Source: a virus
Strand: one strand, 5' to 3'
Virus record (IMG/VR): IMGVR_UViG_3300028393_000001
Coordinates: 59,963 to 123,962 of that record
Length of the DNA: 64,000 nt
Notes under the pieces: model-generated
Told to the model about the DNA's origin: nothing
The model's input: only the letters and a program-made list of their open reading frames with translations
Database searches by the model: none
Part shown: piece after piece, positions 3,320-54,298 of the stretch
Numbering within the stretch: the first letter of the stretch is position 1
How the letters are laid out: every line of letters starts with the position of its first letter
Translations under genes and position numbers: made by a program

Positions 3320-3416
3320 AAATACACTACTTGCCACTTAATAAATATATGCGGAGACGTTCCGGACTGTGTCATTCCGCGGGTAACTGGGAGCACCCAG
3401 CATAGGTAGTGTGTTT
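3320..3416 (+). repeat. Hairpin with outer stem AAATACACTAC / GTAGTGTGTTT
   Basis: 3320-3330 pairs with 3406-3416 (one G-U). Inside are GCGGA...TCCGC and CTGGG-AGCA-CCCAG hairpins. The outer stem sequence is close to that of the hairpin at 5563-5643. It may belong to the tmRNA acceptor piece or be a separate leader structure. Confidence 0.65.
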
Positions 3417-3486
3417 TTTATTTTATAGTTGTATGAAGTAGACAGAAAAGTGTCTTGGACGGGGGTGCGAATCCCCCCAGGTCCAC

Positions 3487-3543
3487 CAGAAGTATATTCG
3501 ACCTCACACGCGGAGAGGTGAAATATAACAGAATATACTTCTG
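3487..3543 (+). repeat. 12-bp helix closing the tmRNA spacer
   Basis: 3487-3498 (CAGAAGTATATT) is the exact reverse complement of 3532-3543. It begins within the CCA end of the acceptor piece and ends three bases before the coding piece, enclosing an inner hairpin ACCTC...GAGGT. Confidence 0.9.
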
Positions 3544-3631
3544 ATGGGCCTGCATAGTTTCGACAGGGCAAAGAGTAGGAAAATGGACAACTCGGTAGGC
3601 GATGACCGTTAATCAAGCAAAACAAGTAAAC

Positions 3632-3664
3632 GCAAACGACTCACAGTTCGCATTAGCAGCCTAA
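3632..3664 (+). other. tmRNA proteolysis-tag reading frame
   Basis: Codons GCA AAC GAC TCA CAG TTC GCA TTA GCA GCC TAA give tag ANDSQFALAA. The tag starts with the resume codon GCA and ends in the ALAA degron seen in many proteobacterial tags. Confidence 0.93.
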
Positions 3665-3722
3665 ACACTGCTTAGGGTTTTGATAAGTTTTCCTCGTAAC
3701 AGAATAAACTTATCTCAAATAC

Positions 3723-3798
3723 CGCAGAGTATGGAAGTGGTCATCCGTCTGGTCTCATAAGCCTGAAATCGTTGGTTCGAATCCAACCTCTGCATCCA
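3723..3798 (+). tRNA. Initiator tRNA-fMet(CAT)
   Basis: 76 nt. Acceptor CGCAGAG faces CTCTGCA, leaving a C1-A72 mismatch, the hallmark of bacterial initiator tRNA. Anticodon loop CTCATAA; anticodon stem with GG/CC pairs; T-arm GTTGG-TTCGAAT-CCAAC; encoded CCA. It starts a few bases after the tmRNA coding piece. Confidence 0.92.
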
Positions 3799-6775: not shown

Positions 6776-6850
6776 GGTCTTAAAGTGTTCATGGACGCAC
6801 ACAACACTGTCACTGTTGAAGAAGGGGATCGTTACCCCTTGAGACCGCCA
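6776..6850 (+). tRNA. tRNA-Asp(GTC)
   Basis: 75 nt. Acceptor GGTCTTA pairs with TGAGACC, anticodon arm CAACA-CTGTCAC-TGTTG, T-arm AGGGG-ATCGTTA-CCCCT (loop without TTC), discriminator G and encoded CCA. Confidence 0.9.
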
Positions 6851-6856
6851 AATTTT

Positions 6857-6922
6857 TGCAATGCTCATTATGAGATTGCACCTGGGCATGTTGCCCAAAA
6901 GTTCTTGCTTATAAAAGGAGAA
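6857..6922 (+). promoter_or_regulatory. ROSE-like RNA thermometer in the hsp20 leader
   Basis: Three hairpins precede the hsp20 start: 6857-6880 (TGCAAT...ATTGCA with inner CTCAT/ATGAG), 6884-6896 (GGGCA-TGT-TGCCC), and 6902-6922. In the last, TTCTTGCTT pairs with AAGGAGAA containing the Shine-Dalgarno, with G6907 of the TTGCT box left bulged. This is the layout of ROSE elements, which melt on heating to free the ribosome binding site of small heat-shock genes. Confidence 0.72.
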
Positions 6923-6925
6923 AAT

Positions 6926-7348
6926 ATGACAGAACTAACCGTGGGTCAAGTAAACTTTGGATCCAACCTCAATCGTGCTTTAATTGGTTTTGACCAACTA
7001 TTCAATAACTTAGAATATGTACAAACTACAAATTATCCACCGTACAACGTAATCAAATCTGATGAAGATAATTATATCATTGAAGTGGCTGTAGCTGGTT
7101 TCAAGAAACCGGAAATTAAAGTAGAAATTGACAATAATAAACTATCAGTAAAAGGTTCTAAAGAGAAAGAGGATACAAAAACGCAGTATCTTCACCATGC
7201 ACTTAGTGCTAGAAACTTTAATCATCAGTTTACTATTGCAGAAAATATGGTGATTAAGTCAGCCACTTTGGAAGATGGAATACTTCAAGTATTAATTAAA
7301 CGTATTGTTCCAGAATCCAAAAAAGTACGTACAATAGATATTCTATAA
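6926..7348 (+). CDS. hsp20: Small heat-shock protein (Hsp20 / alpha-crystallin family)
   Basis: 140 residues. The ATG at 6926 follows AAAAGGAGAAAAT, a strong ribosome binding site; a longer frame from 6731 would run through tRNAs. Residues about 37-130 form an alpha-crystallin domain (NVIKSDEDNYIIEVAVAGFK; LSVKGSKEKED; ATLEDGILQVLIKRIVPE), with the conserved A/G-x-L-x-x-G-x-L motif as ATLEDGIL-V. It lacks only the terminal I-x-I style tail, ending instead in RTIDIL. Small heat-shock proteins hold unfolding proteins for refolding; phage members are known in cyanophages. Regulation is probably by the thermometer just upstream, and an intrinsic terminator follows at 7363. Confidence 0.93.
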   Translation: MTELTVGQVNFGSNLNRALIGFDQLFNNLEYVQTTNYPPYNVIKSDEDNYIIEVAVAGFKKPEIKVEIDNNKLSVKGSKEKEDTKTQYLHHALSARNFNHQFTIAENMVIKSATLEDGILQVLIKRIVPESKKVRTIDIL

Positions 7349-7362
7349 TCGTAATCTTAATA

Positions 7363-7395
7363 AGAGGACTAAAGACAACTTTAGTCCTCTTTTTA
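7363..7395 (+). terminator. Intrinsic terminator after hsp20
   Basis: 12-bp perfect stem AGAGGACTAAAG / CTTTAGTCCTCT with loop ACAA followed by TTTTT. Confidence 0.95.
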
Positions 7396-11311: not shown

Positions 11312-12265
11312 ATGAACAAGATAAAAGCCTACTTAGATGAAGCCTCGATTGCCTACTACTCGGGTAGTCCTATTATTAGTGATGAAGCATTCGACAGATT
11401 AGCCGAAACCTCAGGCTATATGAAGGTAGGCGCTCGTCAACACGATAATATCGCAAAACACCTCTACCCTATGTACAGTTTGCAAAAGTACTACGAGGAT
11501 GAAGGTGTAGCCCCCATTCAAGGGGTCAAAGACATTACTGTAAGTGTTAAACTAGATGGCGCTGCTGTCAGCCTACTTTATGCGAACGGAGAGTTAGTTC
11601 AAGCTCTTACTCGTGGAGACGGCATTGAAGGCACAGATATTACAGAAAAATTCCTTGCCCGCCGAGATCTAGCCCCCTTAAAAGTACCCAGGCTTGATGT
11701 ATTTCAGGTTACTGGTGAAATTGTCGCGTCTAAGGAAATTCCAAATAGTCGTAACTATGCGGCAGGTGCTCTTAACTTAAAAGATATGAATGAGTTTAGG
11801 ACTCGTGCAGTATCTTTCTATGCTTACGGCGTATTTCCTTATGAGCAGCCTACCTTTGTCCGAGACATGGTTATCTTGACTACTCAAGGTTTTCAAACCA
11901 TAATAGCTAAAGAACTAGATAAAATCTATCCATGTGATGGATTAGTATTCCGAGTAAATGACAATCACGAATTTGAAAAACTTGGATATACTTCAAAACA
12001 TCCTCGCGGAGCATATGCAAAAAAAGAACGCCAAGCCGCTGTTGAGACAACTATCGTATCAGTAGAGTGGAATGTAGGTAAATCAGGTAAAGTAACCCCC
12101 GTAGCCCACTTAGACCCAGTTTATATTGGTGATAAGTTAGTGAGTAAAGCAACCTTAAACAATCCTGGGTTTATTGAAATGTTGAATATCTGCATAGGCG
12201 ACCGAGTAGGAGTTATACTAGGCGGAGAGATTATTCCATGCATTACCCACAAAGTAGAATCATAA
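11312..12265 (+). CDS. ligA: NAD-dependent DNA ligase, N-terminal (adenylation/OB) subunit
   Basis: 317 residues. The start has the Ia-domain pattern (AYLDEASIAYYSGSPIISDE, with YY and D..D), then the adenylation motif V-K-L-D-G-A with the lysine that takes AMP (SVKLDGAAVSLLY), then ALTRGDGIEGTDIT, GEIV, CDGLVFRV, KHPRGAYAKK and an OB-fold (GDKLVSKATLNN; GDRVGVILGGEIIP). The Zn finger, HhH and BRCT domains are missing here and occur in the next gene. Phage T5 also has a two-gene ligase, so this looks like a natural split and not a frameshift: the pieces are 93 bp apart with a promoter between. Confidence 0.95.
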   Translation: MNKIKAYLDEASIAYYSGSPIISDEAFDRLAETSGYMKVGARQHDNIAKHLYPMYSLQKYYEDEGVAPIQGVKDITVSVKLDGAAVSLLYANGELVQALTRGDGIEGTDITEKFLARRDLAPLKVPRLDVFQVTGEIVASKEIPNSRNYAAGALNLKDMNEFRTRAVSFYAYGVFPYEQPTFVRDMVILTTQGFQTIIAKELDKIYPCDGLVFRVNDNHEFEKLGYTSKHPRGAYAKKERQAAVETTIVSVEWNVGKSGKVTPVAHLDPVYIGDKLVSKATLNNPGFIEMLNICIGDRVGVILGGEIIPCITHKVES

Positions 12266-12358: not shown

Positions 12359-13114
12359 ATGCAAAAGATTGAAATTCCTACAACTTGTCCATGCTGTTCC
12401 TACAAGCTAGAAATAGTCAATGAACAACTGTTCTGTAGAAATCTATCCTGCGAGGCTCAATTAGGTAAAAAGCTAGAGCATTTTACAAAGACTTTAGGTA
12501 TCAAAGGTTTTGGCCCTAAGACTATTGAGAAACTTGGTTTAGCTGATATTACAGAACTTTTTTACTTAGATAAGGCTTCCGTTGTTGAAGCACTTGGAAG
12601 TGAGAAAGTAACAGATAAGCTCCTAGATGAAATCGAAAGAGCTAAAGGTGCAGATCTAGCCACCGTTTTAGCGTCATTTTCTATCCCTTTAGTGGGTGGA
12701 ACTGCTTCTAAGAAAATTGCTAGTGTAGTTAGTTCTATAGAAGAAATTACACAAGAAACCTGCAAACAAGCAGGCCTTGGAGATAAAGTTACTTCTAATC
12801 TATTGAACTGGATTAGTATGGATTATCCAGAAGTAAAAGAGTTCTTGCCATTCTCTTTTAAGTCCAGTGAAGTAAAACCTGTTAGTACAAGTGGCCCAAC
12901 TATTTGTATTACTGGTAAGTTATCCTCATTTAAAACAAAATCAGAAGCAACCAAGATATTGGAAGCAGCAGGTTTTATAGTAGTAGAGTCCGTAACAAAG
13001 ACTTTAAAGTATCTAGTAGATGAGGACAGCAAAGGAAGTACAAAGCGCAAAAAAGCAGAAGAATATGGCGTAACAATAGTAACAAATCTAACCGATTTTG
13101 TATCAAAATTTTAA
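12359..13114 (+). CDS. ligB: NAD-dependent DNA ligase, C-terminal (Zn-finger/HhH/BRCT) subunit
   Basis: 251 residues. A four-Cys zinc finger (CPCCSYKLEIVNEQLFC and CRNLSCEA, residues about 9-37) is followed by helix-hairpin-helix repeats (GIKGFGPKTIEKLG; ASFSIPLVGGTASKKIA) and a C-terminal BRCT domain (ICITGKLSSFKTKSEATKIL; residues about 180-251). These are the parts absent from the upstream ligase gene, so the two products should assemble into one ligase. It has its own promoter. ATG after an AT-rich leader. Confidence 0.94.
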   Translation: MQKIEIPTTCPCCSYKLEIVNEQLFCRNLSCEAQLGKKLEHFTKTLGIKGFGPKTIEKLGLADITELFYLDKASVVEALGSEKVTDKLLDEIERAKGADLATVLASFSIPLVGGTASKKIASVVSSIEEITQETCKQAGLGDKVTSNLLNWISMDYPEVKEFLPFSFKSSEVKPVSTSGPTICITGKLSSFKTKSEATKILEAAGFIVVESVTKTLKYLVDEDSKGSTKRKKAEEYGVTIVTNLTDFVSKF

Positions 13115-38437: not shown

Positions 38438-41400
38438 TTAATCAAAGAAAAAGAAATTAAAGAATTTTCCTGGTGTGCTGATAGCAAATACCCAACCAAG
38501 ATTATTACTTACATTAGTTGAATTATTTCCAGCGTACCATGAACCTGTACCAGAACTTGTAGCGTTAGAATCTCTAATACTTAAATAATCCGTATTAGTT
38601 ATTCCTGTATTTCTAGTTAAAGTAAATTGTGTACCAGGTATTGTACTATTAATTGTAACAAGATTACCAGAAGTTCCGGATGCTGTAAAATTATTAACAG
38701 TTTGTGTTGAACCTGCTTCAAAAGATATTGTACTTGGTTTTGTCGTTGCAGTTATATCTGCAAACGTATTATTTCCTAGAACAGTTAGTGCACCGGACCC
38801 ACCTTGATTCAATGTTGAATAATTTCCCCCACTACCAGTAAATGTCTTTGCCGATGCACTTGACATATTTAATGTTAGACCTGTAATTATAATTGGAGAA
38901 CTGGTAGAAGAAATCCAAGAAGTTAATGGTGATGTGGGAACAGTAAATGAAGTGGTGTATAATGCTGCACCTTTAGTTATGCGGAAATTACTAATATAAC
39001 CACCAAAACCAAGTCTATATGTAGAATCCGCCCAAGCACCTATATTTAAATTACCGCCTTGTTGTCCCATAGTACCAGAACCTGTTTGTGGAGTACCTGG
39101 TACACCATTAAGATATCCTGTAAATATATTTCCTTGTCTAACTAATGCAAAATGATACCAAGTGTTTGGTGTTATAACGGTAGGATAATTTTCAATTGCA
39201 ACCGCAGTTGGACCAATACCATCACCTATAAACCACTGTATTTTTCCTTGATCTGCTCCGCTTCCTTGTATAAATGCACCATATGATTCATTAACAAAGT
39301 TTACTGTTCCATCCTTCCCGAATAAAGCACCATCTGTTGTTATATTATTTTTATTGAACCAACATTCAATTGTCCAATTTGGCGCACCTGTTGCTAAATC
39401 TAGTACACTACTATTTGGACCAGGTATACTTAAATATTGAGTAGTACCATCTAATAAAATACTACCTATACCAGAAAGTGGGGTCAAAGAATTAAACGTA
39501 GCCGAATTATTATTTGTTACAGTTAATGCATTACTACTACTATCAGTTGTAAAATTATCTGCATTTTGTGTACTTAATAATAAACTAGTTGAAGAACTTA
39601 TTACTGAAGTAAACGCAGTACCTGAACCTGTAATATTATAAGTAGAAGAACCTGTCAAACTAGCTGTAGCATTAGGAAAAGTTGTACCAGAAAAATTAGA
39701 ACTAGTTAAAGTAAATGATGAAGTGTTAAATGTTCCAGACATTAATGTAATTGTTCCAGAAACTATCATTGCGTCAGCAAGTGTAATTGTACCAATTGTG
39801 TTGAGTGTTAATCCAGAAATTGTTTTGCCTTGATTAGTAAATGTGCCTGTACCAGAAGCAATAATACTCATTACAGTAAATGTTCCTGTTGATGATAATG
39901 TTAAATTACCTACTATATTCAATGTAGTTGTAGTTATAGCAAAACTTGTTGTACCAAAATTCAAATTATTAAACCAGCTACCTGTTATAAATGTTATAAC
40001 AGAGGAACCAGTTGTTAATGTTAAATTTGGAGCTGATGTAGCAGAACCACCGGCTGTTGCTCCTAATTGAATTGTTCTTGTTACAGATGCATCGGTTTGG
40101 AAGCCTCCTGTACCTGTACATGTAAGTCCGGTTACATTACTCATTTGCAAGGCATATGCTAATCCTGTAGGATAATTTAATATAATATTATTTGAACCAA
40201 ATGAAATTACACGAGTGTTTGCGTTTGATGAAAAGAATTGGCCTATTGTTAAATTACTACCAAGAGTTAATGTACCAGCTGTTAATGAATATCCACCTGT
40301 ATTAGTTGAGGCATAGGCTTTATTAAAAGTAACTGATCCAGCTGTATGATTAAATGATGGTACTGCACCTAGTACAGCTGTACCACTATATGTAAATGTT
40401 CCTGTTGCATTTACAAAGCTAACAGATGGTATTATAGTTCCATTAGAAAAATTAAATGTGCCTGAGTTAGTAAATGTTGTACAAGTAATGGTACCAATGT
40501 TGCTTAATGTACCTGCTGTATATGTTGCTGTGCCTGAACAAGTCAAATTGAAAGTAGCGAAATCAATAGTTCCACTAGTTTGTGTATAGGTAGTACAACT
40601 TAAAGCACTCGCTAATGTAGTAATTGTAGGGTCTCCTACTACATTAATAATAGTAAATGCCGCTATTGTTTTTCCATTAGGAGTAATAGTTCCTGTTCTA
40701 AACATTGTTACCGATAAACCAGTATATGTACTAGTACTAGATAATAATAAACTATTAACGTTTACACTGGTTGTTGGGATAGTAAACGCAGTAGTACCAA
40801 AATTAAGTATTTTAAACCAACTACTAGTAGTCAATGTTTGTATTGCAGTACCAGATCCAGTAAACGTTAAGTTTGGTTCCATTCCACCAGCAGTAGTTAC
40901 CCCAAATTGAAACGTTCTAGTTATATCTGCGGCCGCAGTAAATCCGCCGGTGCTAGTATTGTCCCATGTAAAACCGGTAGTAACCGCCATTGATAAATTT
41001 ACTGCAGTTGCAGTAGTAGTTGCCAACACAATATTGTTTGTGCTAAATGAAATCGCCCTTGTATTTACATTAGATGAGCTGAATATACCTGTTGTTAAAT
41101 TACTGCCTAATGTTAATGTACCGGCTGTTAATGTATAAGTACCGGTGGCGGTTAAGGCATAAGCTTTATTAAAAGTAACTGATCCAGCTGTATGTGTAAA
41201 TGCTGGTACTGCACCTAGTACAGCTGTACCACTATATGTAAATGTTCCTGCTGTTGTATTTACAAAACTAACAGATGGTGTTATAGTTCCACTAGAAAAA
41301 ACAAATGTACCTGAGTTAGTAAATGTTGTACATGTTAAAGTACCAATATTTGATAGTGTACCACCATTGTAAGTTGCTGTGCTAGAACAAGTAAAATTAA

Positions 41401-44400
41401 AACCAGCAAAATCCAATGTGCCCAATGTGACTGCCAATGTTGTGGATGCTCCAGCACTTCCAAGTGTGATTGTAATACCAAGTGTATTAACTATAAATGG
41501 TCCAAGCGATGCACTATTGAATATATACGTACCGCTAACTAACGGATTAATTGTTGTACTAGTATAAACACCACCTGAAGAAAGTGTGAGATTACCAACA
41601 ATGTTTAAGGTTGTTGTTCCTGGATTAAATATTGTTGTTCCAAAATTTAAGTTCTTAAACCAACTGGCTGTTGTTAGTGTCGCAACAAAAGCACCTGTTG
41701 TGAATGTAAGATTTACTGCGGTTGATAGCGACCCACCAGTAGTTCCGTAAGTAAGTGTTCTTGTGTTAGCCATATCAGCCACGGTGAATCCACCGGGCCC
41801 GGTATAGGTAAATCCTGTCACAATAGCCATACTCAATACAGTTGTTGCGGTAGTTGTATGTGTGAGATTGATATTTCCTGCCGACAAGCTACCAAAATTA
41901 ATTGAACGTGTGTTAGCGTTTGATGAAAAGAATATCCCAGTATTCAATGTTACACCATCAGCAAGTGTTAGGGTACCTGCTGTTAATGCATATGTACCAG
42001 TGACGGTTAAACCAAGTGATTGATTTAATGTAACAGTACCAGCAGTGTGTGTGAATGTTGCTACTGAACTTAAAACGGCCGGACTATTATATGTAAATGA
42101 TCCTGTTGTTAATACAAAGCTGGTTGATGGTGTAATTGTTCCGCTAGAGAAAGTAAATGATGGTCCATTAACGGTAAAGGTTGTACAAGTGATTATTCCT
42201 ATATTACTTAAAGTACCTCCAGCGTATGTTACGGTACCAGTATCAGTTAAAGTAAATGTGGCAAAATTCATTGTACCCAAAGTTTGAGTATATGAAGTAC
42301 ATCCAAAAGCACCTGCTAGTGTGATAGTACCTGACGTATTAACAGTAAAAGCACCTATTGTTTTACCATTAGGTGTAATAGTACCAGTACCAACAGCATT
42401 AATAGCAAGAGCAGTGAATATACCAGCACCAGAAGATAATGTTAAGTTACCTGCTATATTTAATGTTGATGCGGCCGCAGTAAAAGCAGTAGAACCAAAA
42501 TCTAAATTTTTATACCAATTATTATTTGATATTGTAACAACTGCCGTACCAGAACCAGTCAATGATAAGTTAGGAGCATTTGTTAATGAACCGCCTGTTA
42601 GACCGGCTGTAACTGTTCTAGTAATAGATGCATCGGTTTGAAAACTACCAGTTCCTGTCCAAGTAAAATTAGTAAGTGTTGCTATATTCAATACAGTTAT
42701 AGCAGCAGTAGTGTGCGCCAATACAATATTACCTATACCAAACTGAATTGCTCTTGTATTTGAGTTACTAGAGCTGAATATACCAGTTGTTAATGTAAAT
42801 CCATTAAGGTTTAATGTTCCAGTAGTTAATGTAGTTGTAGCTGTGATTAAAATAGGAAATGCTGTTTGTAATGTAATTGTTCCTACAGTATTAATAGTTA
42901 ATCCACCTAAACCAGTAGATGTTGTTAGAGCAGCACCATTAATATTAAGATTACCTGTGCCTGTCATTGTTACACTCAATAAAGTGTAACTACCAGTGCC
43001 TGATAATATTAAACTACCAGAACAAGTTATACCTGTTGATGGTACAGCAAATGTTGTAGTACCAAAATTTAAGTTATTAAAAAAGCTTGAATTTATTGTA
43101 GCAACAGAGGCACCTGTTGTAAAAGTAAGATTTGGATTGACTGTCGTTACCGCCTGAACAAAACTACGAGTAACACTCATGTCCGCAACAGTAAAGCCGC
43201 CTAGACCTGGGCAAGTAATATTAGTTCCTTGAATATTCAAAACTGTTGTTGCAGCTGTTGTATGCGTAAGGTTTATATTTCCTGCAGTTGTTGTGCCAAA
43301 CGTAATCGAACGGACACTGTTACTATTTGAACTAAAAATACCTGTTGTCAATGTTACACTATCAGCAAGTATTAGGGTACCAGCTGTTAATGTATAAGTG
43401 CCAGTAGCGGTTAAGGCATAAGCTTTATTAAAAGTAACTGATCCTGCTGTATGTGTGAATAGTGTTACTGCACTTAATACAGCTGTATTGCTGTAAGTAA
43501 ATGAACCACTAGTTAATACAAAGCTGGTTGATGGTGTTATAGTTCCACTAGAAAAAACAAACGCTGGTCCATTAACTGTAAATGTTGTACATGTTAAAGT
43601 TCCAATATTTGATAGTGTACCACCAGTGTATGATACGGTACCAGTATCAGTTAAATTAAAACCAGCAAAATTAATTGTACCCGATGTTTGTACATATGAA
43701 GTACAACCAAAAGCGCCGGCTAGTGTTACAGTACCCAACGTATTAACGGTAAATGCGGCTACTGTTTTACCATTAGGTGTAATAGTACCTGTGCCAGCCA
43801 TTGTAAATCCCTGAGAAATGTATGTACTACCAGCTGCTAGGGTTAAATTACCTGTTATATTTATAGATGAACCACTAAGTGCACCAGTATTTCCAGTAAA
43901 ATCTAAATTATTAAACCAACAACCAGGACCAAATTGCGGAGGACTAGCAGCTCCACCTGTAATAAAAAGATTAGGTGCAGATGTTATAGAACCACCAGCA
44001 GTTATTCCAGAATCAAATGATCTTATAGTACTCATTATTGTACTAAATCCACCAGTACCTGTTGGTGTAAAGTTAGTAAGGTCTGTTATATTTAACACGG
44101 TATTACTAGCGGCAGTAGTTGCAAGAAAAATATAATAAGTATTAAATGCAATTGATCGAATATTTGTAGTAGGAGAATAAATAATACCTGTTGTTAAATT
44201 GGCACCCAATGTTATTGATCCTGCACTTAGAGTATACTGACCAGTAGCAGTTAATGAATATGCTTTATTAAAAGTAACTGATCCAGCGGTATGTGTAAAT
44301 AGTGGTACTGCACTTAGTACAGCAGTACCACTATATGTAAATGAACCTGATGTTAATACAAAACTGGTTGAAGGTGTTATAGTTCCACTAGAAAAAACAA

Positions 44401-47400
44401 ATGTAGCTCCGTTAACAGTAAATGTTGTACATGTTAAAGTACCAATATTTGATAGTGTACCACCAGTAAATGTTACCGTACCAGTATCAGTTAAATTAAA
44501 ACCAGCAAAATTCATTGTACCCAAAGTTTGAGTATATGAAGTACATCCAAAAGCACCTGCTAGTGTGATAGTACCTGACGTATTAACAGTAAAAGCACCT
44601 ATTGTTTTACCATTAGGTGTAATAGTACCTGTGCCATTCATTATTATTCCAAGAGCGGTATAAGTACCTCCAGTTGCTAAAGTAAGATCTCCGTATACAC
44701 TTACTACTGTACTGGCTGGAATTGATGTGCTTCCACTAAAATTTAAATTGTTAAATAAACTATTTATTGATAGTGTGGGTATACTTACTCCACTATAAAT
44801 TGATAAATTAACTGGTGTACCCGATACTGTATTAGTAAATGTAGGTGCTGAACTAACAAATACACTTGCTCCTGTATTAGTAATAGTAAAATTATTAATG
44901 CTACTATCTGACGACCCACTACCAAAAGATGTATTTAATAATAATGATGTTTGGGAACCTGTAATAGCACCAGTATTAACCCCACCAAATGGGTTTGCTG
45001 TTTGAGTAGAAGTAAAAAGTCCAGTTGGAGTAGTAAAATTACCTGTATATACTGCTACCCCTGTTACTAATCTTATATTAGAAATATAACCAGCAAAATA
45101 ATCTAAAAATCCAGGATATTGGAAAGATCCGATAATAGTTTTTCTAGCAGTGACTGTTTTTGTAATAGTTGCCGAGTTATCCAATACACCATTAACAAAT
45201 AGTTTAACAAGTCCTGACTGTCTTGTCACTGCCACATGATACCATGTACCCAGAGAGATAGCTATACTACCCTCAACATATGCCTGACTTGAACTATCTC
45301 TTAGTTGAAATCCGATGGTGCCTCCTGAACGTGTAAATAGTTCCCAATATGAGGTGCCGCTGGACTCAGCATTAGTTAACAATGTCCCATCTGTTGCTGA
45401 TGTTTTATAAAACCAACACTCAGCAGTAAAATCACCAGTACCCCAAGAACTTGCCCCAACTGGTGCTGTTAAATATTGACTAGTACCATCTAACAACACA
45501 CTGCCAGGAGTAGCATTAGCTGATCCAGAAGTAAATGTGCGATCCACACTCATTGCGGAAACAAATCCACCTGTTCCTGTAACAGTTAATCCTGAAGAAT
45601 ATGCCATATCCAATACATTTATAGATGTAGTAGTATGTGCAAGTATAATATTACCTGTACCAAATGCAATAGTTCTAAAAAGAGTATTATTTGAGCTAAA
45701 AATTCCTGTTGTTAGGGTAAATCCTGCAAGATTTAGTGTTCCAGTTGTTAATGTTACTGTAGAGTTAACAGCTACTGTTAATGGAGCAGCTAAAGTAACT
45801 GTACCTGTAGTACAATTAATTGTAAATGATGGTAAAGTTGAATTACCAGCACTATTAATAGTTCCTGTACCAATAAAAGTTACTGTTAAATTTGTAAAAT
45901 TTCCACCAGAAGACAGAAGTAAACTATTAAGTTTTAAATTTGTTGTAGGTACAGTAACTGCTCCCGTACCACTTAAATCTAGTATATTAAATAAAGAGCT
46001 TGTTACTAATGCAGGAACAGAACTGCCAGTTAATCTAAGAGATGGTGCATTAGATGTTGAACCACCAGAAACACTACCAAAATTAAATCCTCTGGTAATA
46101 GTCATATTTGAATAAAATCCACCAGTACCTGATGCAGTAAAAGTAAAATTATTAGCCTGGTTCATAACTAATACAGTTGTTCCTGCATTTGGAGATGTTA
46201 ATTCTATAGTATATGAACCAAATTGTATTGAACGTATATTAGTATTATTAGAAGAAAAAATCCCAGTACTTACATTTGCTCCTAATTGAAGCACACCTGT
46301 TACTAAAGTAAATTGTGATGTTGCGGATAAATTACCACTTTGCCAGTAAACTGTTGTATTTGATGAGTTTACTATAATATCTGGTTGAAATGTGCCACCA
46401 ATTAATAATGTTTGAGTAACAGCGTTTCCTAAAAAAATTACTCCTATAGCGCTGCCTGATACTGTGGAATTTACGCCTGTTTTAATATCTCCGTAGACAT
46501 TGAAATTATTTAAAATATTTAACGTCATTGATAAATTTCTTGACGACATGTCTAATGTACCAATGGAATAGTTACCATTAATAGTGATTGTATTTCCCGT
46601 AGTAAGGCCTGTATTATCTACAATACATACATCTTGGGGTAATGGAAAATTATTAACACTTGGTGTTCCACCAGATGATTCTGCCCAAGCAATTGCATTC
46701 CAGGTACCTCCAGCTGTAAGACTCCAATAGAGTGTTCTTGCAACAAAAGTTATATTTGTATTATTACCTAAGTTACCAAGTCTTGTTCCTGTAAAAGGAG
46801 AAGCCGTACCAGTAGCATTTATATCTTTAAAATCAATATCAGTTAAAGACAATGTAGCAGCTGACAATGTAATTTGAGTACCAGTTGTACTAGATTGTAA
46901 TAATAAACGACCAGACGATAATGTACTTGTATTGCTTAATATGCCATTAATTGTTTGAGTTCCAGTGATTGATACTGTAACAGTTCCTGTTGTTGTTGGA
47001 TTGGTGAAATTTAAATTATTATATGTGTTTGTTCCAGTAATAGTTGTTATACTATCTGGTGATTGTGCTGGAGTAAATGATACATTATAAAATGTTTTAT
47101 TACTACTACCATTGTTTATTATAGTTGACGAAGAAACTCCACTTAAATTAATTTGTGAAGTTCCTGCATTAAATGTAGTATTTTCATAAGTTTGAAAATA
47201 ACCACTTAGATTAATTGTAGAAGAACCTAAATTAAATATAGTAGGAAAACCAAGTGAAGTAGCAATATTAGTACATGTAATATTATAATTATTTGTATTA
47301 AATGTTCCCCTAAAACAAAATATATTTGTACATGAAAGTGCTGAACCTAAATTATAAGTAACATTACTACCATTACCAATATAAATACTACCAGGAATTG

Positions 47401-50400
47401 TTTTACCATTTGTTGTTATAGTTTTTGTACCAGTGCTAGCATATAAGTTAAGACTACCAGTCATAGCTGTAAAAGTCATACTAGCAGATAATGTATAATT
47501 ACCATAAATATAATGACTTACTTGTGCTGCCAGAGTACCAGTAAATCCTGTAAAATCAACATTATTAGCTGAATCATTAGCATTTGTTATAAAACTTAGT
47601 GTTGAGGCACCAGTAAAATTAAAACTAATTGATTGAGCTTCTGATAGTGGTCCAGGAGATACACTAACTGTTCCTGATGGAGAGGTTACATTAACAACAG
47701 GAGTTCCTGTGATTGTTAAAGTTGTAACTGTACTAGTATCCCAAATATTACCTGTACCATTAACAGTTATAGAATTAGAACCAAAATTGAGTGTTCTAGG
47801 TCCACCAGCATCATTACTATTAAAAGAACCAGTTGTTATATTATAACCATTAAGAGACAGTGTTCCATAATATAATTGAACACTACTTAATGAGGTCATA
47901 ACTAGATCTGCACCTAATTGAACTGTTGCAGCAGCAATCAGAATTGAAGCTTGAATAGTTCTTGAAATCGTTATAGTTCTAAGTGTAAGATCTAGGGGAC
48001 TTGGACTAGTGCCAAATTGGATTTGTCCAGTTAATGAAGTAACAGTTCCGCCAGTGGCTGGTATGGTGCAATCTCCCAAAATATTCAATGTCAATGGCAC
48101 AGTAAAAGTACATGTTAATCCTGTTAAATCTAAAGTATAAAGACTACCAGATAATGCAACAGTATCTGTGGCACCAGAATTAATTTGAATACCAACACAC
48201 GAATTACATTTAACATCAAGTAATGGGGTGTATGATTTAATTGACGATGCTAATTTAATAGTTCTTGTTCCAATAGAACCACTATATGTACTAAGTATTT
48301 TTATTGTTCCTAAAGACCAATCACGATTAGAAGAACTTGTATCCCATATTGTTGTATTATTACCTGTTAATTGAATTAATGAAGATGTACTGAAATCAAT
48401 AAAACGTGTAGTAGTTGTACCTGATGCAATATATGCACCAGTTGTTAAAGTGTAATTATTAAGCGATAATGTTCCATCTGCATGTGCGTATGTACTTACT
48501 GTAAGTGAATTATTTAAAGTAACAGTACCTGCCGTATGCGTGAAAACAGGTGTTGTTAACGTACCGCCAGTATATGTAAATGTTCCTGCCGTGTTCATTA
48601 CAAAACTAACAGAAGAATTAATTGTTCCACTAGAAAATGTCAAATCACCAATACAGTTAAACGTTGTACAACTTATAGTTCCAATATTACTTAGTGTACT
48701 TGCGGTATATGTTGCAGTACTTGAACAAACTATATTAAATCCAGCACAATCTAAGTTACCTGACGTTTGTGCATAGGTAGTACAACTTAAAATACCTGCA
48801 AGCGTTATGGTTCCTGTTCCGCCTGTAATAACTTGAAAAGCGGCGATTGTTTTACCATTGGGAGTAACTGTAACAGTACCGCCTGCTTTTGTTAACATAT
48901 TTAAACTTAAAGCGGTAAATGTACCACCGGTAGATAATACGAACTCATTGACATATACAGCAGAAGCAGATACCATTGTAAACGCGGTTGTTCCAAAATC
49001 AAGTTTATTAAAATTACCACCTGAAATTGTTGCGGAAGTAGTACCAGTACCTGTAAATGTTAAGTTTGGTGCATTTGTTCCAAGACCGCCGCTAGTATTT
49101 CCAAAACTAAATGTTCTTGTAACCAATGCATCTGCTGTAAATCCGCCAGTACCTGTCCAAGTGAAACCGCCGGCAATTGCCATAGCCAATACTGTTTGCG
49201 CTGCGGTAGTATGAGCCAAAACAACATTATATGTTCCAAACGCAATTGAACGAGTACCTGCACCAGAAGAACTGAATATACCTGTTGTTAAATTAGCACC
49301 TAGTGTTATGGTACCAGCTGTTAATGTATAAGTGCCGGTAGCGGTTAAAGCATATGCTTTATTAAAAGTTACGTTACCAAATGTATGTGTAAATGTAGGT
49401 ACAGCACTTAATACAGCTGTACCGCTGTAAGTAAATGTTCCTGCCGTGTTCATTACAAAACTAACACTAGGTGTAATTGTTCCACTAGAAAATGTCAACT
49501 CACCAGTACAGTTAAATGTTGTACAAGTAATGGTTCCAATATTGCTTAATATTCCTGAGTTATATGTGGCTGTTGAACTACACGTTAAGTTGAATGTAGC
49601 AAAGTTAATTGTACCAGCTACCGGGGCATTCATTATGAATGATGTTACACTCAGTGCAGCCGACAATGTGACTGTGCCAGAACCATTAACGCTAAATGCT
49701 GCTATAGCTTTACCATTAGGTGTAATAGTACCTGTACCAGCTGCTGTTATTGATAAGTTGGTATATGTACCGCCAGCTGCTAAAGTTAGATTACCAGTGA
49801 CGTTTACTGTTGATATTGCTGGAGTTGCAGTTGATCCAGTAAAATCTAAATTATTAAACCAACTAGCCGTAGTAATAGTTGGTATAGCTGCGCCAGCAGT
49901 TATTGCTAGATTGGGCGATGTTGTTATAGAACCGCCTGTTGTTGATCCGCATGTAAATGATCTTGTAACAGAACCGTTTGCTGTAAAACCACCAGTACCT
50001 GACCAAGTAAAGTTGGTCAAATCTGCCATACTCAATACTACAGTAGCAGCAGTTGGATGTACTAAAACAATACTGAATGTACTAAAAGCAATTGAACGAA
50101 CTCCAGTACCAGTAGAACTGAATATACCTATTGTTAAATTACTGCCTAGTGTTAGTGTACCTGCTGTTAGGGTATAAGTGCCGGTAGCGGTTAAAGTATA
50201 CGCTTTATTAAAAGTTACGTTACCAGCTGTATGTGTAAATGTAGGTACTGCACTTAATACAGCTGTACCGCTGTAAGTAAATGTTCCTGCTGTATTTACA
50301 AAACTAGTTGAAGGTGTGATTGTTCCACTAGAAAAATCAAATGTGCCTGAGTTAGTAAATATTGTACAAGTAATAGTTCCAATATTGCTTAATGTACCGC

Positions 50401-53400
50401 TAGTATACGTAGCTGCGCCTGAACAAATTATATTAAATCCAGCACAGTCTAAATTACCTGCAGTTTGAGTAAATGTACTAGTAGTTACTGGGCCCGTCAA
50501 TGTTGAGATTGTAATAAGTCCAACATTCTGAAAGCCGGCAATCGTTTTGCCGTTAGTTGTGATGTTTTTAACAACAGCGCCATCATGTTGGTTACCAATT
50601 CTTAAAGTTACACCAGTGTATGTTCCACCAGTTGATAAAATTAGTCCACTTACAGTTATTTGACCTGTTGTAACAGAACAAGTAGTTGTTCCAAAATCAA
50701 GATTATTAAAGTCGCTATTAGTTAATGTTTGAGTTTGATTACCACTACCAGTATATGTTACATTAAAACCCCCTAAAGTACCACTAGCTGTAGATCCAAC
50801 TGCAATTGTTCTTGTAACTGATGCATCTGTTAAAAATCCACCTGTACCTGTCCAAGTAAAATTTGTACCATTTACAACGTTTAATACAGTTTGTGCTGCT
50901 GTAGGGTGATTCAATACAATATTGTTTGTACCAAACGCAATAGAACGTACACCAGTACCAGCAGACGTAAATATACCTGTTGTTAAGTTGCCGCCTAATG
51001 TTAATGTACCTGCTGTTAGGGTATATGTTCCTGTAGTAGTTAATGAATAATTTGTATTAATTGTTACTGAGCCTGCTGTATGCGTAAACGTTGGTACTGC
51101 TGATAAACCACCGGCTGCAGAAAAATTAACTGTAAGAGAACCTGAAGTTATAACAATACTTGTTGAAATTATCCAAGAACAGCCTGCAGCTATACTATAT
51201 GTACTACCTGCAATTGTAAGTGTAGTACATTGAACCTGTCCATTGTTGGATAATGTTCCACCATTGAGTGTACATGTGCTACTACAAATAAGTATACAAT
51301 TACTTTCTGTAACTACTGTACCAGCTGTTACAGCTAAGGTAGTACATCTATTAGTGTTACCATTAAGAAATGTTGTAGTTACAAGAACATTATTAACAAT
51401 CACAGGACCTATGCTGATACCAGCATATATAGTACCTGTACCAACCATATTTGAAGTTAGTGCAGTGAGCACACTTGTAGTTGAAGAAGTTGTTAAATTA
51501 ACTAAATTTATAGTTGTTGCAGCAATAGTAAAAGCAGTAGTACCAAAATTAAGTTCACCAAACCAACTACCTGTTGTCAGTGTAGGAGCTGATATACCAC
51601 TAGCCAAATAAAGGCCAGGTGCATTTGTTGCAGTACCACCAGTAGTTCCAAATGTAAATGTTCTGGTAACTGCCATTATTGAATGGAAACAGCCAGTTCC
51701 TGAGCCAAAAGTACCTGAAGTAGTATATGTAAAACCAGTAACTGTAGCCATATTTAATACAACAGTCGCAAGCGTAGTATGTTGTAAAGAAATAGTACCA
51801 GTTCCAAAATAAATTGCTCTTGTGTTTGTATTTGATGAACTAAATGCACCTGTTAATAAACCAAAATTATTAAGGTTTAATGTACCAGTTGTTAATGTGG
51901 TTGTACCTGTAAGAATTGTTGCAAACGCTGATGATAAAGTAACTGTTCCTGCAGTATTAATATTTAGTGCAGCTAAACCACCTGATGATAATCCAGAACT
52001 AGTAAGGGTACCAGTTGCTATCATGTTTACGGTTACTGCATTATAACTACTACTAGCTGATAGATTTAAATTTCCAGTAATATTTAATGTTGCTGCTGCA
52101 GGGATGCCAGCAGTTGTACCAAAATCTAAATTATTAAAATAACTACCTGTTGTAATTGTTGGGATAGCTGCACTTGTACCTGTAAAGGTTAAATTTGGTG
52201 CAGTTACTAAGGCTCCACCAGTTGTACCAAATACTAGAGTTCTAGTTACAGCCATGTCTGTAATGAAGTTTTGAGTTCCTGTGAACGTATAACCTGTAAC
52301 AATAGCCATATTTAGCACAGTTGTTGCAGCTGTGCTATGTGTTAAAGTAATAGTACTAGTCCCGAACTGAATAGCTCTTGTATTTGTATTTGATGAACTA
52401 AATGCACCTGTTAATAAATTAAAACCATTTAGGTTTAATGTACCAGCCGTTAGTGTAGTTGTACCAAGTACCGTCACTGCAAATGCTGATAGTAAAGTAA
52501 CTGTTCCAGTAGTATTAATATTTAACCCAACCAGTGCGCCAGCAGATGTTCCAGAACCAGTAAGAGTACCAGTTGCTATCATGTTTACGGTTAATACACT
52601 ATAATTACCACTAGTTGATAGATTTAAATTTCCGGTAATATTTATGGTAGTTGGTCCGGCCACCGAATTGGCAGTTGTAGTAAAATCTAAATTATTAAAA
52701 TAACTACCTGTTGTAAGTCCGATACTACTTGTGCCACCTCCTGTAAAGGTTAAATTTGGTGCAGTTACTAAGGCTCCACCAGTTGTACCAAAAGTAAATG
52801 TTCTACCCCCTGCCGTATCTGAAATAAAGTTTTGAGTTCCTGTGAACGTATAACCTGTAACAATAGCCATAGTTAATACAGGAACGGCACCTCCTGTTAA
52901 AGTAACACTATAAGTACCAAATGCAATTGAACGAGTATTTACATTACTAGAATTTAATATACCAACTGATAAATTACCGCCTAATGTTAATGAACCAGCA
53001 GTAAGTGTATATGTACAATTAGTTGGTAATGTCCATGCAATAGTTGACGATACTGTACCATTAGTTTGTATAAATGCAGGGCCTGTTAGTGTACCTCCAC
53101 TATTTGTGTATATACCAGAAGTAATAGTAAAACTTGAACTACTAGAAATAGTACCTGAAGTATGGGTAAATGTTGGCCCATTTAATGTAAATGTTATACA
53201 CTGAAGTGTACCACTTGTAATATCTAAACTACCACTGTTCCATGTAGCTGTGTTTGAGCAAATTAGAGAACTTGCAGCACCAAGTACCAAAGAGCCTTGT
53301 GTTACTGTTAATGTGGTACATCTACTTGTATTGCCTGCTTGAGCGGTAGTAGTTGCACCAACCGTATTTATAATTAATGGTCCTATAGTATTTTGTGTAT

Positions 53401-54298
53401 TAATTGTTCCGGTTCCTACCATATTGGCTGTTAAGCTGGTAAGAACACATGTAGAATTATTGTAAATATTAACTAAATTAAGAGTTGTTGCTATAGCTGT
53501 ATATGCTGTTGTGCCAAAATTAATTTCATTAAACCAACTACCCGTTGTCAATGTTGCAACTGCAACACCACTAACTAAATAAAGTTTTGGAGCATTTATT
53601 GCCGAACCACTAGTAGTTCCAAACGTAAATGTTCTGGTAACCGACATTGTGGATTGAAAACCCCCTGTTCCTGATCCAAAAGTACCGCTACTTGTATATG
53701 TAAAATTGGTTACATCCGCCATGCTCAACACAGTTTGTGCAGCTGTAGTATGAGCTAAAATAATATTATTGGAACCAAATGCAATTGAACGTGTATTAAT
53801 GATACTAGAACTGAATATACCAGTAGTTAGATCAAAACCATTAAGAGATAATGCACCGTTAGTTAATGTAGTAGTCTGTGTTGCACCAGTTGTTAATGCG
53901 CTAGTCAAACTCCAGCCACCACCTACTCCATTGAATGTAATAGGAGCATTTATTGTTGTTCCGCCAGTACCAATTGTTTTACCAGTTATTGTACTGTTAA
54001 ATGTTATTGCACCAGTACTAGTCCAAGTCATAGCTATCAATGACATAGAACCTGAAATTGCAAGTGTAGGTGTTGTACCTATTGCAAACGTGACAGTGCC
54101 TGCCGATACCGTAATATCTTGGCAAGTTAAAGCTCCCGTCATTGTAACTGTATAAGTACCTGGTTGGTCAAATATAACATTGTCAGCTGCAGTAGGAACA
54201 CTTGCACCGCCTGTTACTGCACCTGATGTAGTAGCCCAGTTAGTAGTTAAAGTAGTATTCCATGTACCTGCACCGCCTCTCCAATATCTATCTGCCAT
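38438..54298 (-). CDS. Giant repeat protein of 5,286 residues, probable virion adhesin/fibre
   Basis: One uninterrupted 15.9-kb frame. It opens with MADRYWRGGAGTWNTTLTTN, a start seen in phage structural repeat proteins. It is built of Ser/Thr/Gly/Asn-rich beta repeats such as GTLTLGSNLTTGIFSSSNTN, VTRTFTFGTTGG, WFNNLDFGTTAF and GTYTLTAGTLTLG, with a period near 280 residues (840 bp, nearly identical DNA). Two LamG/concanavalin-like domains interrupt them at about residues 2,930-3,140 (TAECWFYKTSATDGT) and 4,945-5,130 (TIECWFNKNNITTDG). The C-terminus ends in KFFNFFFFD. Low Cys, no signal peptide. A parallel beta-helix or beta-solenoid fibre that binds host polysaccharide is the best guess. 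Confidence 0.85.
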   Translation of the reverse strand: MADRYWRGGAGTWNTTLTTNWATTSGAVTGGASVPTAADNVIFDQPGTYTVTMTGALTCQDITVSAGTVTFAIGTTPTLAISGSMSLIAMTWTSTGAITFNSTITGKTIGTGGTTINAPITFNGVGGGWSLTSALTTGATQTTTLTNGALSLNGFDLTTGIFSSSIINTRSIAFGSNNIILAHTTAAQTVLSMADVTNFTYTSSGTFGSGTGGFQSTMSVTRTFTFGTTSGSAINAPKLYLVSGVAVATLTTGSWFNEINFGTTAYTAIATTLNLVNIYNNSTCVLTSLTANMVGTGTINTQNTIGPLIINTVGATTTAQAGNTSRCTTLTVTQGSLVLGAASSLICSNTATWNSGSLDITSGTLQCITFTLNGPTFTHTSGTISSSSSFTITSGIYTNSGGTLTGPAFIQTNGTVSSTIAWTLPTNCTYTLTAGSLTLGGNLSVGILNSSNVNTRSIAFGTYSVTLTGGAVPVLTMAIVTGYTFTGTQNFISDTAGGRTFTFGTTGGALVTAPNLTFTGGGTSSIGLTTGSYFNNLDFTTTANSVAGPTTINITGNLNLSTSGNYSVLTVNMIATGTLTGSGTSAGALVGLNINTTGTVTLLSAFAVTVLGTTTLTAGTLNLNGFNLLTGAFSSSNTNTRAIQFGTSTITLTHSTAATTVLNMAIVTGYTFTGTQNFITDMAVTRTLVFGTTGGALVTAPNLTFTGTSAAIPTITTGSYFNNLDFGTTAGIPAAATLNITGNLNLSASSSYNAVTVNMIATGTLTSSGLSSGGLAALNINTAGTVTLSSAFATILTGTTTLTTGTLNLNNFGLLTGAFSSSNTNTRAIYFGTGTISLQHTTLATVVLNMATVTGFTYTTSGTFGSGTGCFHSIMAVTRTFTFGTTGGTATNAPGLYLASGISAPTLTTGSWFGELNFGTTAFTIAATTINLVNLTTSSTTSVLTALTSNMVGTGTIYAGISIGPVIVNNVLVTTTFLNGNTNRCTTLAVTAGTVVTESNCILICSSTCTLNGGTLSNNGQVQCTTLTIAGSTYSIAAGCSWIISTSIVITSGSLTVNFSAAGGLSAVPTFTHTAGSVTINTNYSLTTTGTYTLTAGTLTLGGNLTTGIFTSAGTGVRSIAFGTNNIVLNHPTAAQTVLNVVNGTNFTWTGTGGFLTDASVTRTIAVGSTASGTLGGFNVTYTGSGNQTQTLTNSDFNNLDFGTTTCSVTTGQITVSGLILSTGGTYTGVTLRIGNQHDGAVVKNITTNGKTIAGFQNVGLITISTLTGPVTTSTFTQTAGNLDCAGFNIICSGAATYTSGTLSNIGTITCTIFTNSGTFDFSSGTITPSTSFVNTAGTFTYSGTAVLSAVPTFTHTAGNVTFNKAYTLTATGTYTLTAGTLTLGSNLTIGIFSSTGTGVRSIAFSTFSIVLVHPTAATVVLSMADLTNFTWSGTGGFTANGSVTRSFTCGSTTGGSITTSPNLAITAGAAIPTITTASWFNNLDFTGSTATPAISTVNVTGNLTLAAGGTYTNLSITAAGTGTITPNGKAIAAFSVNGSGTVTLSAALSVTSFIMNAPVAGTINFATFNLTCSSTATYNSGILSNIGTITCTTFNCTGELTFSSGTITPSVSFVMNTAGTFTYSGTAVLSAVPTFTHTFGNVTFNKAYALTATGTYTLTAGTITLGANLTTGIFSSSGAGTRSIAFGTYNVVLAHTTAAQTVLAMAIAGGFTWTGTGGFTADALVTRTFSFGNTSGGLGTNAPNLTFTGTGTTSATISGGNFNKLDFGTTAFTMVSASAVYVNEFVLSTGGTFTALSLNMLTKAGGTVTVTPNGKTIAAFQVITGGTGTITLAGILSCTTYAQTSGNLDCAGFNIVCSSTATYTASTLSNIGTISCTTFNCIGDLTFSSGTINSSVSFVMNTAGTFTYTGGTLTTPVFTHTAGTVTLNNSLTVSTYAHADGTLSLNNYTLTTGAYIASGTTTTRFIDFSTSSLIQLTGNNTTIWDTSSSNRDWSLGTIKILSTYSGSIGTRTIKLASSIKSYTPLLDVKCNSCVGIQINSGATDTVALSGSLYTLDLTGLTCTFTVPLTLNILGDCTIPATGGTVTSLTGQIQFGTSPSPLDLTLRTITISRTIQASILIAAATVQLGADLVMTSLSSVQLYYGTLSLNGYNITTGSFNSNDAGGPRTLNFGSNSITVNGTGNIWDTSTVTTLTITGTPVVNVTSPSGTVSVSPGPLSEAQSISFNFTGASTLSFITNANDSANNVDFTGFTGTLAAQVSHYIYGNYTLSASMTFTAMTGSLNLYASTGTKTITTNGKTIPGSIYIGNGSNVTYNLGSALSCTNIFCFRGTFNTNNYNITCTNIATSLGFPTIFNLGSSTINLSGYFQTYENTTFNAGTSQINLSGVSSSTIINNGSSNKTFYNVSFTPAQSPDSITTITGTNTYNNLNFTNPTTTGTVTVSITGTQTINGILSNTSTLSSGRLLLQSSTTGTQITLSAATLSLTDIDFKDINATGTASPFTGTRLGNLGNNTNITFVARTLYWSLTAGGTWNAIAWAESSGGTPSVNNFPLPQDVCIVDNTGLTTGNTITINGNYSIGTLDMSSRNLSMTLNILNNFNVYGDIKTGVNSTVSGSAIGVIFLGNAVTQTLLIGGTFQPDIIVNSSNTTVYWQSGNLSATSQFTLVTGVLQLGANVSTGIFSSNNTNIRSIQFGSYTIELTSPNAGTTVLVMNQANNFTFTASGTGGFYSNMTITRGFNFGSVSGGSTSNAPSLRLTGSSVPALVTSSLFNILDLSGTGAVTVPTTNLKLNSLLLSSGGNFTNLTVTFIGTGTINSAGNSTLPSFTINCTTGTVTLAAPLTVAVNSTVTLTTGTLNLAGFTLTTGIFSSNNTLFRTIAFGTGNIILAHTTTSINVLDMAYSSGLTVTGTGGFVSAMSVDRTFTSGSANATPGSVLLDGTSQYLTAPVGASSWGTGDFTAECWFYKTSATDGTLLTNAESSGTSYWELFTRSGGTIGFQLRDSSSQAYVEGSIAISLGTWYHVAVTRQSGLVKLFVNGVLDNSATITKTVTARKTIIGSFQYPGFLDYFAGYISNIRLVTGVAVYTGNFTTPTGLFTSTQTANPFGGVNTGAITGSQTSLLLNTSFGSGSSDSSINNFTITNTGASVFVSSAPTFTNTVSGTPVNLSIYSGVSIPTLSINSLFNNLNFSGSTSIPASTVVSVYGDLTLATGGTYTALGIIMNGTGTITPNGKTIGAFTVNTSGTITLAGAFGCTSYTQTLGTMNFAGFNLTDTGTVTFTGGTLSNIGTLTCTTFTVNGATFVFSSGTITPSTSFVLTSGSFTYSGTAVLSAVPLFTHTAGSVTFNKAYSLTATGQYTLSAGSITLGANLTTGIIYSPTTNIRSIAFNTYYIFLATTAASNTVLNITDLTNFTPTGTGGFSTIMSTIRSFDSGITAGGSITSAPNLFITGGAASPPQFGPGCWFNNLDFTGNTGALSGSSINITGNLTLAAGSTYISQGFTMAGTGTITPNGKTVAAFTVNTLGTVTLAGAFGCTSYVQTSGTINFAGFNLTDTGTVSYTGGTLSNIGTLTCTTFTVNGPAFVFSSGTITPSTSFVLTSGSFTYSNTAVLSAVTLFTHTAGSVTFNKAYALTATGTYTLTAGTLILADSVTLTTGIFSSNSNSVRSITFGTTTAGNINLTHTTAATTVLNIQGTNITCPGLGGFTVADMSVTRSFVQAVTTVNPNLTFTTGASVATINSSFFNNLNFGTTTFAVPSTGITCSGSLILSGTGSYTLLSVTMTGTGNLNINGAALTTSTGLGGLTINTVGTITLQTAFPILITATTTLTTGTLNLNGFTLTTGIFSSSNSNTRAIQFGIGNIVLAHTTAAITVLNIATLTNFTWTGTGSFQTDASITRTVTAGLTGGSLTNAPNLSLTGSGTAVVTISNNNWYKNLDFGSTAFTAAASTLNIAGNLTLSSGAGIFTALAINAVGTGTITPNGKTIGAFTVNTSGTITLAGAFGCTSYTQTLGTMNFATFTLTDTGTVTYAGGTLSNIGIITCTTFTVNGPSFTFSSGTITPSTSFVLTTGSFTYNSPAVLSSVATFTHTAGTVTLNQSLGLTVTGTYALTAGTLTLADGVTLNTGIFFSSNANTRSINFGSLSAGNINLTHTTTATTVLSMAIVTGFTYTGPGGFTVADMANTRTLTYGTTGGSLSTAVNLTFTTGAFVATLTTASWFKNLNFGTTIFNPGTTTLNIVGNLTLSSGGVYTSTTINPLVSGTYIFNSASLGPFIVNTLGITITLGSAGASTTLAVTLGTLDFAGFNFTCSSTATYNGGTLSNIGTLTCTTFTNSGTFVFSSGTITPSVSFVNTTAGTFTYSGTAVLGAVPAFTHTAGSVTFNKAYALTATGTYTLTAGTLTLGSNLTTGIFSSSNVNTRAISFSTNNIVLATTTATAVNLSMAVTTGFTWDNTSTGGFTAAADITRTFQFGVTTAGGMEPNLTFTGSGTAIQTLTTSSWFKILNFGTTAFTIPTTSVNVNSLLLSSTSTYTGLSVTMFRTGTITPNGKTIAAFTIINVVGDPTITTLASALSCTTYTQTSGTIDFATFNLTCSGTATYTAGTLSNIGTITCTTFTNSGTFNFSNGTIIPSVSFVNATGTFTYSGTAVLGAVPSFNHTAGSVTFNKAYASTNTGGYSLTAGTLTLGSNLTIGQFFSSNANTRVISFGSNNIILNYPTGLAYALQMSNVTGLTCTGTGGFQTDASVTRTIQLGATAGGSATSAPNLTLTTGSSVITFITGSWFNNLNFGTTSFAITTTTLNIVGNLTLSSTGTFTVMSIIASGTGTFTNQGKTISGLTLNTIGTITLADAMIVSGTITLMSGTFNTSSFTLTSSNFSGTTFPNATASLTGSSTYNITGSGTAFTSVISSSTSLLLSTQNADNFTTDSSSNALTVTNNNSATFNSLTPLSGIGSILLDGTTQYLSIPGPNSSVLDLATGAPNWTIECWFNKNNITTDGALFGKDGTVNFVNESYGAFIQGSGADQGKIQWFIGDGIGPTAVAIENYPTVITPNTWYHFALVRQGNIFTGYLNGVPGTPQTGSGTMGQQGGNLNIGAWADSTYRLGFGGYISNFRITKGAALYTTSFTVPTSPLTSWISSTSSPIIITGLTLNMSSASAKTFTGSGGNYSTLNQGGSGALTVLGNNTFADITATTKPSTISFEAGSTQTVNNFTASGTSGNLVTINSTIPGTQFTLTRNTGITNTDYLSIRDSNATSSGTGSWYAGNNSTNVSNNLGWVFAISTPGKFFNFFFFD
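39800..54200 (-). repeat. Long near-identical DNA repeats (about 840 bp period) in the giant gene
   Basis: The motif GCATAAGCTTTATTAAAAGTAAC and its variants recur near 40315, 41155, 43420, 44260, 49350 and 50200. Neighbouring pairs are about 840 bp apart, which is 280 codons. Confidence 0.85.

Follow-up and report, generated by a model that had tools for sequence, protein, structure and literature searches.

The window analysed here is a 64,000-nt (64 kb) stretch (positions 59,963–123,962) of a 124 kb virus record, with genes for an A-family DNA polymerase, PhoH and ribonucleotide reductase present. In a DNA similarity search of the window against known phages, a tRNA-Val was the sole match. 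Inside the tRNA cluster, on the plus strand, a tRNA-Asp gene with an encoded CCA (GUC; 6776–6850; ARAGORN; 36.5 bits to Rfam tRNA) is followed by a 75-nt leader that runs from the tRNA CCA to an ATG (6851–6925) and by a coding sequence of 140 amino acids (6926–7348, ATG at 6926). The phage heat-shock gene that a sequence-only reading of this DNA had supposed to lie here is an hsp20 gene, as its product matches PF00011 (72.1 bits) and phrog_432 (136.8 bits). Downstream on the same strand, at about 7363–7394, AGAGGACUAAAG ACAA CUUUAGUCCUCU and then a U run, read by eye, form a predicted intrinsic terminator that closes the tRNA-hsp20 unit. A phage tmRNA of the permuted betaproteobacterial type (3374–3755; RF04321, 136.8 bits; ARAGORN tag ANDSQFALAA) sits among the cluster of 19 tRNAs. 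Elsewhere in the window, two adjacent ORFs (11312–12265 and 12359–13114) resemble, by eye, the two halves of a NAD-dependent DNA ligase, and the minus strand holds a repetitive ORF of 5286 residues (38438–54298).

Folding the leader without most of the coding sequence (6857–6930) gave three plus-strand hairpins with an energy of −20.3 kcal/mol (z = −2.54; 5 of 200 shuffles were as good), at the places where the sequence-only reading had put them. Hairpin A (6857–6880), whose helix covaries, contains a bulged G6863 (AU[G]CUC..GAGAU) and is the counterpart of the AUGCC/GGGU hairpin in relatives and in Rfam ROSE_3. Hairpin B (6883–6897; UGGGCA-UGU-UGCCCA) is shared within the window's subfamily. 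The two upstream hairpins that had been likened to those of ROSE elements are both present, and three hairpins in all fit the ROSE-type architecture of two to four with stable upstream ones. Hairpin C (6902–6922), the putative ROSE-type thermosensor, pairs UUCUU[G]CUU with AAGGAGAA through five outer pairs (U6902-A6922, U6903-A6921, C6904-G6920, U6905-A6919 and U6906.G6918) and, past the bulged G6907, three inner ones (C6908-G6917, U6909-A6916 and U6910-A6915). In this 3′-most hairpin UUGCU (6905–6909) pairs with the Shine-Dalgarno (SD) sequence AAGGAG (6915–6920) and masks it, and G6907, the bulged G of the U(U/C)GCU motif in the leader-only fold and in relatives, lies opposite the SD, which agrees with the bulge that had been proposed in TTGCT. 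By itself hairpin C is within chance expectation, as a bulged-G SD hairpin of at least 8 pairs appeared in 3.6% of leader shuffles and in 4 of the 24 SD-bearing leaders of the window's own genome. A single sequence is therefore insufficient proof, and we regard hairpin C as real because it is conserved in relatives.

A covariance model built from seven relatives with the window excluded (R1) matched the window at 6883–6923, across hairpin C, with 29.2 bits (E 5.9e-5 in 558 kb), and this was its sole match in the window at E ≤ 1. A second model, R2, trained on phage leaders only, matched 6855–6923 with 31.4 bits (E 3.5e-5). The element was found once in this phage, and a search of it for homologues of DnaK and GroES found none. 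Across 79 R1 matches, in an alignment that is fitted to the structure and includes a few false rows, 91.1% of cells were paired, compared with 71.8% after shuffling the 3′ letters and at most 58% with slid partners; double changes occurred at 12 of 18 pairs (265 cells versus 82 shuffled), and the covariation score was 0.461 versus 0.152. A MAFFT alignment of 74 leaders placed the SD out of register and was not used for covariation, which was therefore assessed from the model-fitted alignment together with alignment-free swapping of arms. Because the model alignment is structure-fitted and has false rows, hairpin A was examined in this alignment-free way: its outer arms formed 4.5 of 5 pairs, compared with 2.43 ± 0.11 when arms were swapped between leaders. 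The core of hairpin C (CUU, AAG, GAG) is nearly invariant, as is expected of an SD, and its variation consists mostly of U to C opposite G and of a covarying outermost pair.

The same motif is widespread in phages. Among 113 hsp20 leaders from viral contigs, chosen by the coding pattern NYPPYNxxK and thus independently of the leader, 103 had T[TC]GCT..AGG within 45 nt of the start, a count that includes one leader near-identical to the window and at least three matches that look accidental (L162, L191 and L225). The bulge of the motif is retained in 92 of 98 non-redundant leaders. A further sample of 20 leaders included 19 from named phages (of Synechococcus, Prochlorococcus, Pelagibacter, Methylophilales, Sinorhizobium, Pseudomonas and Salicola); the U(U/C)GCU signature lay opposite the SD in 17 of the 20, and the remaining three (S-TIM5, Callisto and SCTP-2) had the bulged-G pairing in altered form; in S-TIM5, CCAC[G]CUU faces the SD AAGGUGG, a compensated A-U exchange. 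The first distant relative, L002, whose Hsp20 is 49% identical, carries GGGCAC-GGTGCCC and ACTTGCTTAATTTAAGGAG. A gene-blind exact scan for CTTGCTTN{3,8}AAGGAGA found at least 122 instances in viral contigs, at least 109 of them with a start codon, of which at least 91 preceded hsp20 and at least 5 dnaK; the identical scan of bacterial and archaeal genomes found at least 117 instances, at least 40 with a start and at least 3 before hsp20. Genes for Hsp20 are common in cyanophages, and the element occurs before hsp20 of marine and freshwater T4-like phages, two pelagiphage types and jumbo phages. In cyanophage S-CREM1 (L003:30-128), an annotated glnA riboswitch lies near the element-bearing hsp20.

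Genes other than hsp20 also carry the element. R2 and a pattern scan located it before phage dnaK in eight loci, and in four contigs (L082, L024, L147 and L194) dnaK and hsp20 each have their own copy. In a groES, groEL, hsp20 cluster (L090:10724-13254), one ROSE-like leader precedes groES and another hsp20. The element was also found before a rubredoxin gene (L039) and before small phasin-like ORFs (L014, L065, L138, L166 and L226), in three cases with hsp20 directly downstream. A homologue of the L014 phasin-like protein is encoded at 431–691 of the window, where the element is absent. Of 84 leaders, 28 have a T4-like late promoter, TATAAATA, 8–17 nt upstream of hairpin A (chance expectation about 0.5 in the 44-nt windows searched), and therefore in these relatives the mRNA probably starts at hairpin A and hsp20 is probably a late gene. 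No such promoter was found upstream of the window's own leader; there the 3′ end of tRNA-Asp is 6 nt upstream of hairpin A, and processing of this tRNA probably sets the 5′ end of the leader.

The sequence-only reading had assigned the leader to the ROSE type and had proposed a search with the Rfam ROSE models. The assignment stands as regards an RNA family with a conserved motif, covarying stems and retrieval of ROSE_3, and fails as regards the models themselves, none of which matches the window. An Rfam scan of the window (ROSE, ROSE_3, FourU and other thermometers) gave no credible match: ROSE (RF00435) had none at E ≤ 10 in the whole 124 kb record, and ROSE_3 (RF02523; cut-off 43 bits) had none in the window. 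Relatives match ROSE_3 below its threshold, with 34.1 bits for Melnitz, the best phage record tested, and 29.6 bits for L002; both align with the ROSE_3 consensus over all 69 positions. Matches of preQ1-II (16 bits) and freshwater-2 (15 bits) to the AAAGGAGAA..AUG end are at chance level and were dismissed, and a FourU thermometer was ruled out, as the anti-SD is UUCUUGCUU and no FourU match was obtained. When 150 genomes of Polynucleobacter's order and 299 of its phylum were searched with R2, matches were obtained in six distinct bacterial genomes. All eight bacterial R2 matches examined lay upstream of hsp20 (five found without the DNA pattern, three at loci first met through it). Two are authentic Rfam ROSE_3 elements (67.1 and 70.7 bits), and because a model trained on phage leaders retrieves them, the phage and bacterial elements appear to be of one structural kind. 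A mainly host (betaproteobacterial) feature was rejected as an explanation, since strict filters, which make these figures lower bounds, detected the element in 2 of the 150 order genomes and 5 of the 299 from the phylum. Bacteria seldom carry the element and phages often do, so it could have descended in either direction. The hsp20 leader of Polynucleobacter yangtzensis (L323:7803-7858) closely resembles the phage ones.

Judged from its sequence, the window element is ROSE-like and closest to ROSE_3; because it scores below every Rfam ROSE model we call it ROSE-like and not a member of ROSE_3, although it resembles that family in every structural respect that could be assessed here. The phage elements share with ROSE_3 the order of two hairpins, an AU[G]CC..GGGU first hairpin with a bulged G, and YGCU paired with AGGAG upstream of hsp20. 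They differ from ROSE_3 in that their A/U-rich SD hairpins are shorter and that dnaK and groES are among the genes they precede. We conclude that they are a phage branch and variant of an established type of element, broader in target genes than known ROSE elements. In the short ROSE-like thermometers of Pseudomonas, pairing of U(U/C)GCU with the SD has been proven experimentally, and removal of the G locks the switch (PMC3669281). The Pseudomonas ibpA leader (Krajewski 2013, PMC3669281) is likewise short, with a stable first hairpin and a short SD hairpin with U(U/C)GCU before a small-heat-shock gene, but that gene is cellular and the SD core is flanked by G-C pairs where the window has A/U; the window adds a third hairpin and a start-codon stem. 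ROSE (RF00435) of B. japonicum hspA shares U(U/C)GCU opposite the SD, an unpaired or G-G guanine (G83, the counterpart of window G6907; PMC9450479), upstream accessory hairpins and a small-heat-shock gene, whereas the window's leader is shorter and has no RF00435 match. The phage lambda cIII thermometer (Altuvia 1989, cited in PMC4166951) similarly masks a ribosome binding site in a phage leader in a temperature-dependent manner, but closes at high temperature, lacks the ROSE motif and controls lysis/lysogeny. A literature search for ROSE elements or hsp20 thermometers in phages found no paper, nor any temperature experiment on a phage member.

The window also contains a competing hairpin, absent from the sequence-only reading, that involves the start codon. 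On the plus strand, AGUUCU (6900–6905) can pair with AGAACU (6931–6936), an outer stem predicted by folding and seen in relatives that is continued by UUAUA/UAUGA across the start codon; the start codon is part of this stem or enclosed by it, and the stem and hairpin C compete for C6904. Once coding sequence is added to the fold, the energy model favours this hairpin (6900–6913/6925–6936), in which the AUG is sequestered and the SD is in the loop. By nearest-neighbour energies, which ignore the non-canonical pairs of ROSE elements, the AUG hairpin is predicted at −5.3 and the SD hairpin at −2.6 kcal/mol at 37°C, −10.9 and −6.1 kcal/mol at 15°C, and the SD hairpin at −1.3 kcal/mol at 45°C. Predicted exposure of the AUG in the window rises from 0.02 at 4°C to 0.42 at 37°C and 0.51 at 42°C, whilst between 10 and 45°C the predicted opening of the SD across the class increases only gradually, from 0.27 to 0.38. 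In the window's subfamily, relatives of L176 and L237 chosen independently of the leader, hairpin B is shared (L373-L400 and L416-L442), and an extra stem joins an arm just 5′ of the anti-SD to codons 2–4, with covarying variants CGUUC/GAACG, UGAUUC/GAAUCA, UUGUC/GACAA and CAUUC/GAAUG. RNAalifold selects this outer stem, with double changes at three of five pairs, and extends it as far as the AUG's G. Pairing of U(U/C)GCU with the SD is present in 99.4% of the subfamily's cells.

Computation supports the structure of the element and shows it to be conserved, to covary and to accompany chaperone genes. We consider it very probable that this leader of 75 nt is an RNA thermometer of the ROSE type, similar to ROSE_3, that controls translation of the phage Hsp20; opening on heating, ribosome binding and benefit to the phage are extrapolated from the ROSE family. 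On an mRNA beginning at hairpin A, by tRNA-Asp processing in the window or from the late promoter in relatives, hairpins A and B would be folded at ordinary temperature, with the third element positioned to close the initiation region. In the closed state the SD would be held by UUCUU[G]CUU across the bulged G and a U.G pair, the AUG would be held by the stem extending into codons 2–4, or both; either closed form would be marginally stable, block initiation and melt on heating. In the warm, hairpin C (and the outer stem) would open, ribosomes would load and Hsp20 would be made, a holdase chaperone that may shield late phage proteins in the heat-stressed cell. The presence of the element before heat-shock or chaperone genes of many unrelated phages suggests that phages probably switch on their own chaperones on warming. 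ROSE-like RNA appears to be regular equipment of phage hsp20 genes and is present also before phage dnaK and groES. If it works as proposed, phages would read the infected cell's temperature directly through their mRNA, independently of the heat-shock response of the host, and the role of viral hsp20 genes would become testable.

One explanation that we weighed against this reading is still a thermometer, but one that masks the AUG: for the window and its nearest relatives, the start-codon hairpin and not the SD hairpin would be the working switch, with the ROSE motif left as a relic or serving as a second closed form. This is a possibility, if a clearly less probable one, that draws on the RNAalifold-supported outer stem with its double changes, on the greater predicted stability of this hairpin in the window and on the predicted rise in AUG exposure between 4 and 42°C. 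However, phages without the outer stem also conserve the pairing of U(U/C)GCU with the SD, this pairing is near-universal in the subfamily itself, and the outer-stem double changes come from few clades. Chance, in which an A/U-rich leader merely happens to fold over its SD, would be compatible with the shuffles (3.6%) and the leaders of this genome (4 of 24) that have an equal or better bulged-G SD hairpin, but is highly improbable given the E-value of a model from whose training the window was excluded (R1, 5.9e-5) and the conservation and covariation; the comparative data already make chance unlikely.

We also considered a structured translational control site that is not driven by temperature, for example one bound by a protein of the phage or host, or a simple brake on late translation. 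Hairpin A carries the bulged motif of hairpin C (UGC/GG), one clade changes both bulges from G to A together, as a shared partner predicts, and regA, a translational repressor gene, is directly upstream in several cyanophages. We nevertheless judge such a site improbable, since the targets are almost all chaperones (hsp20, dnaK and groES), the motif matches proven thermometers (PMC3669281 and PMC9450479), hsp20 genes with no regA before them keep the element in both phages and bacteria, and the G-to-A change is limited to related phages.

The thermometer reading can be taken further, to a shared RNA device that runs a phage chaperone regulon (hsp20, dnaK, groES-groEL and phasin-like genes) and in which the two UGC/GG motifs act jointly. 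We hold this extension to be doubtful. Joint action, by docking of the motifs on each other or through a common partner, would account for the shared G-to-A change of the two bulges in one clade and would amount to more than a set of independent local thermometers. The paired G-to-A bulges may reflect shared descent, or they may be a sign that both motifs work together. The A-for-G bulges lie in one clade (L417-L442, leaders upstream of hsp20), and a simple script that scored the bulges of hairpins A and C found 117 leaders with (G,G), 20 with (A,A), 11 with (G,A) and 1 with (A,G).
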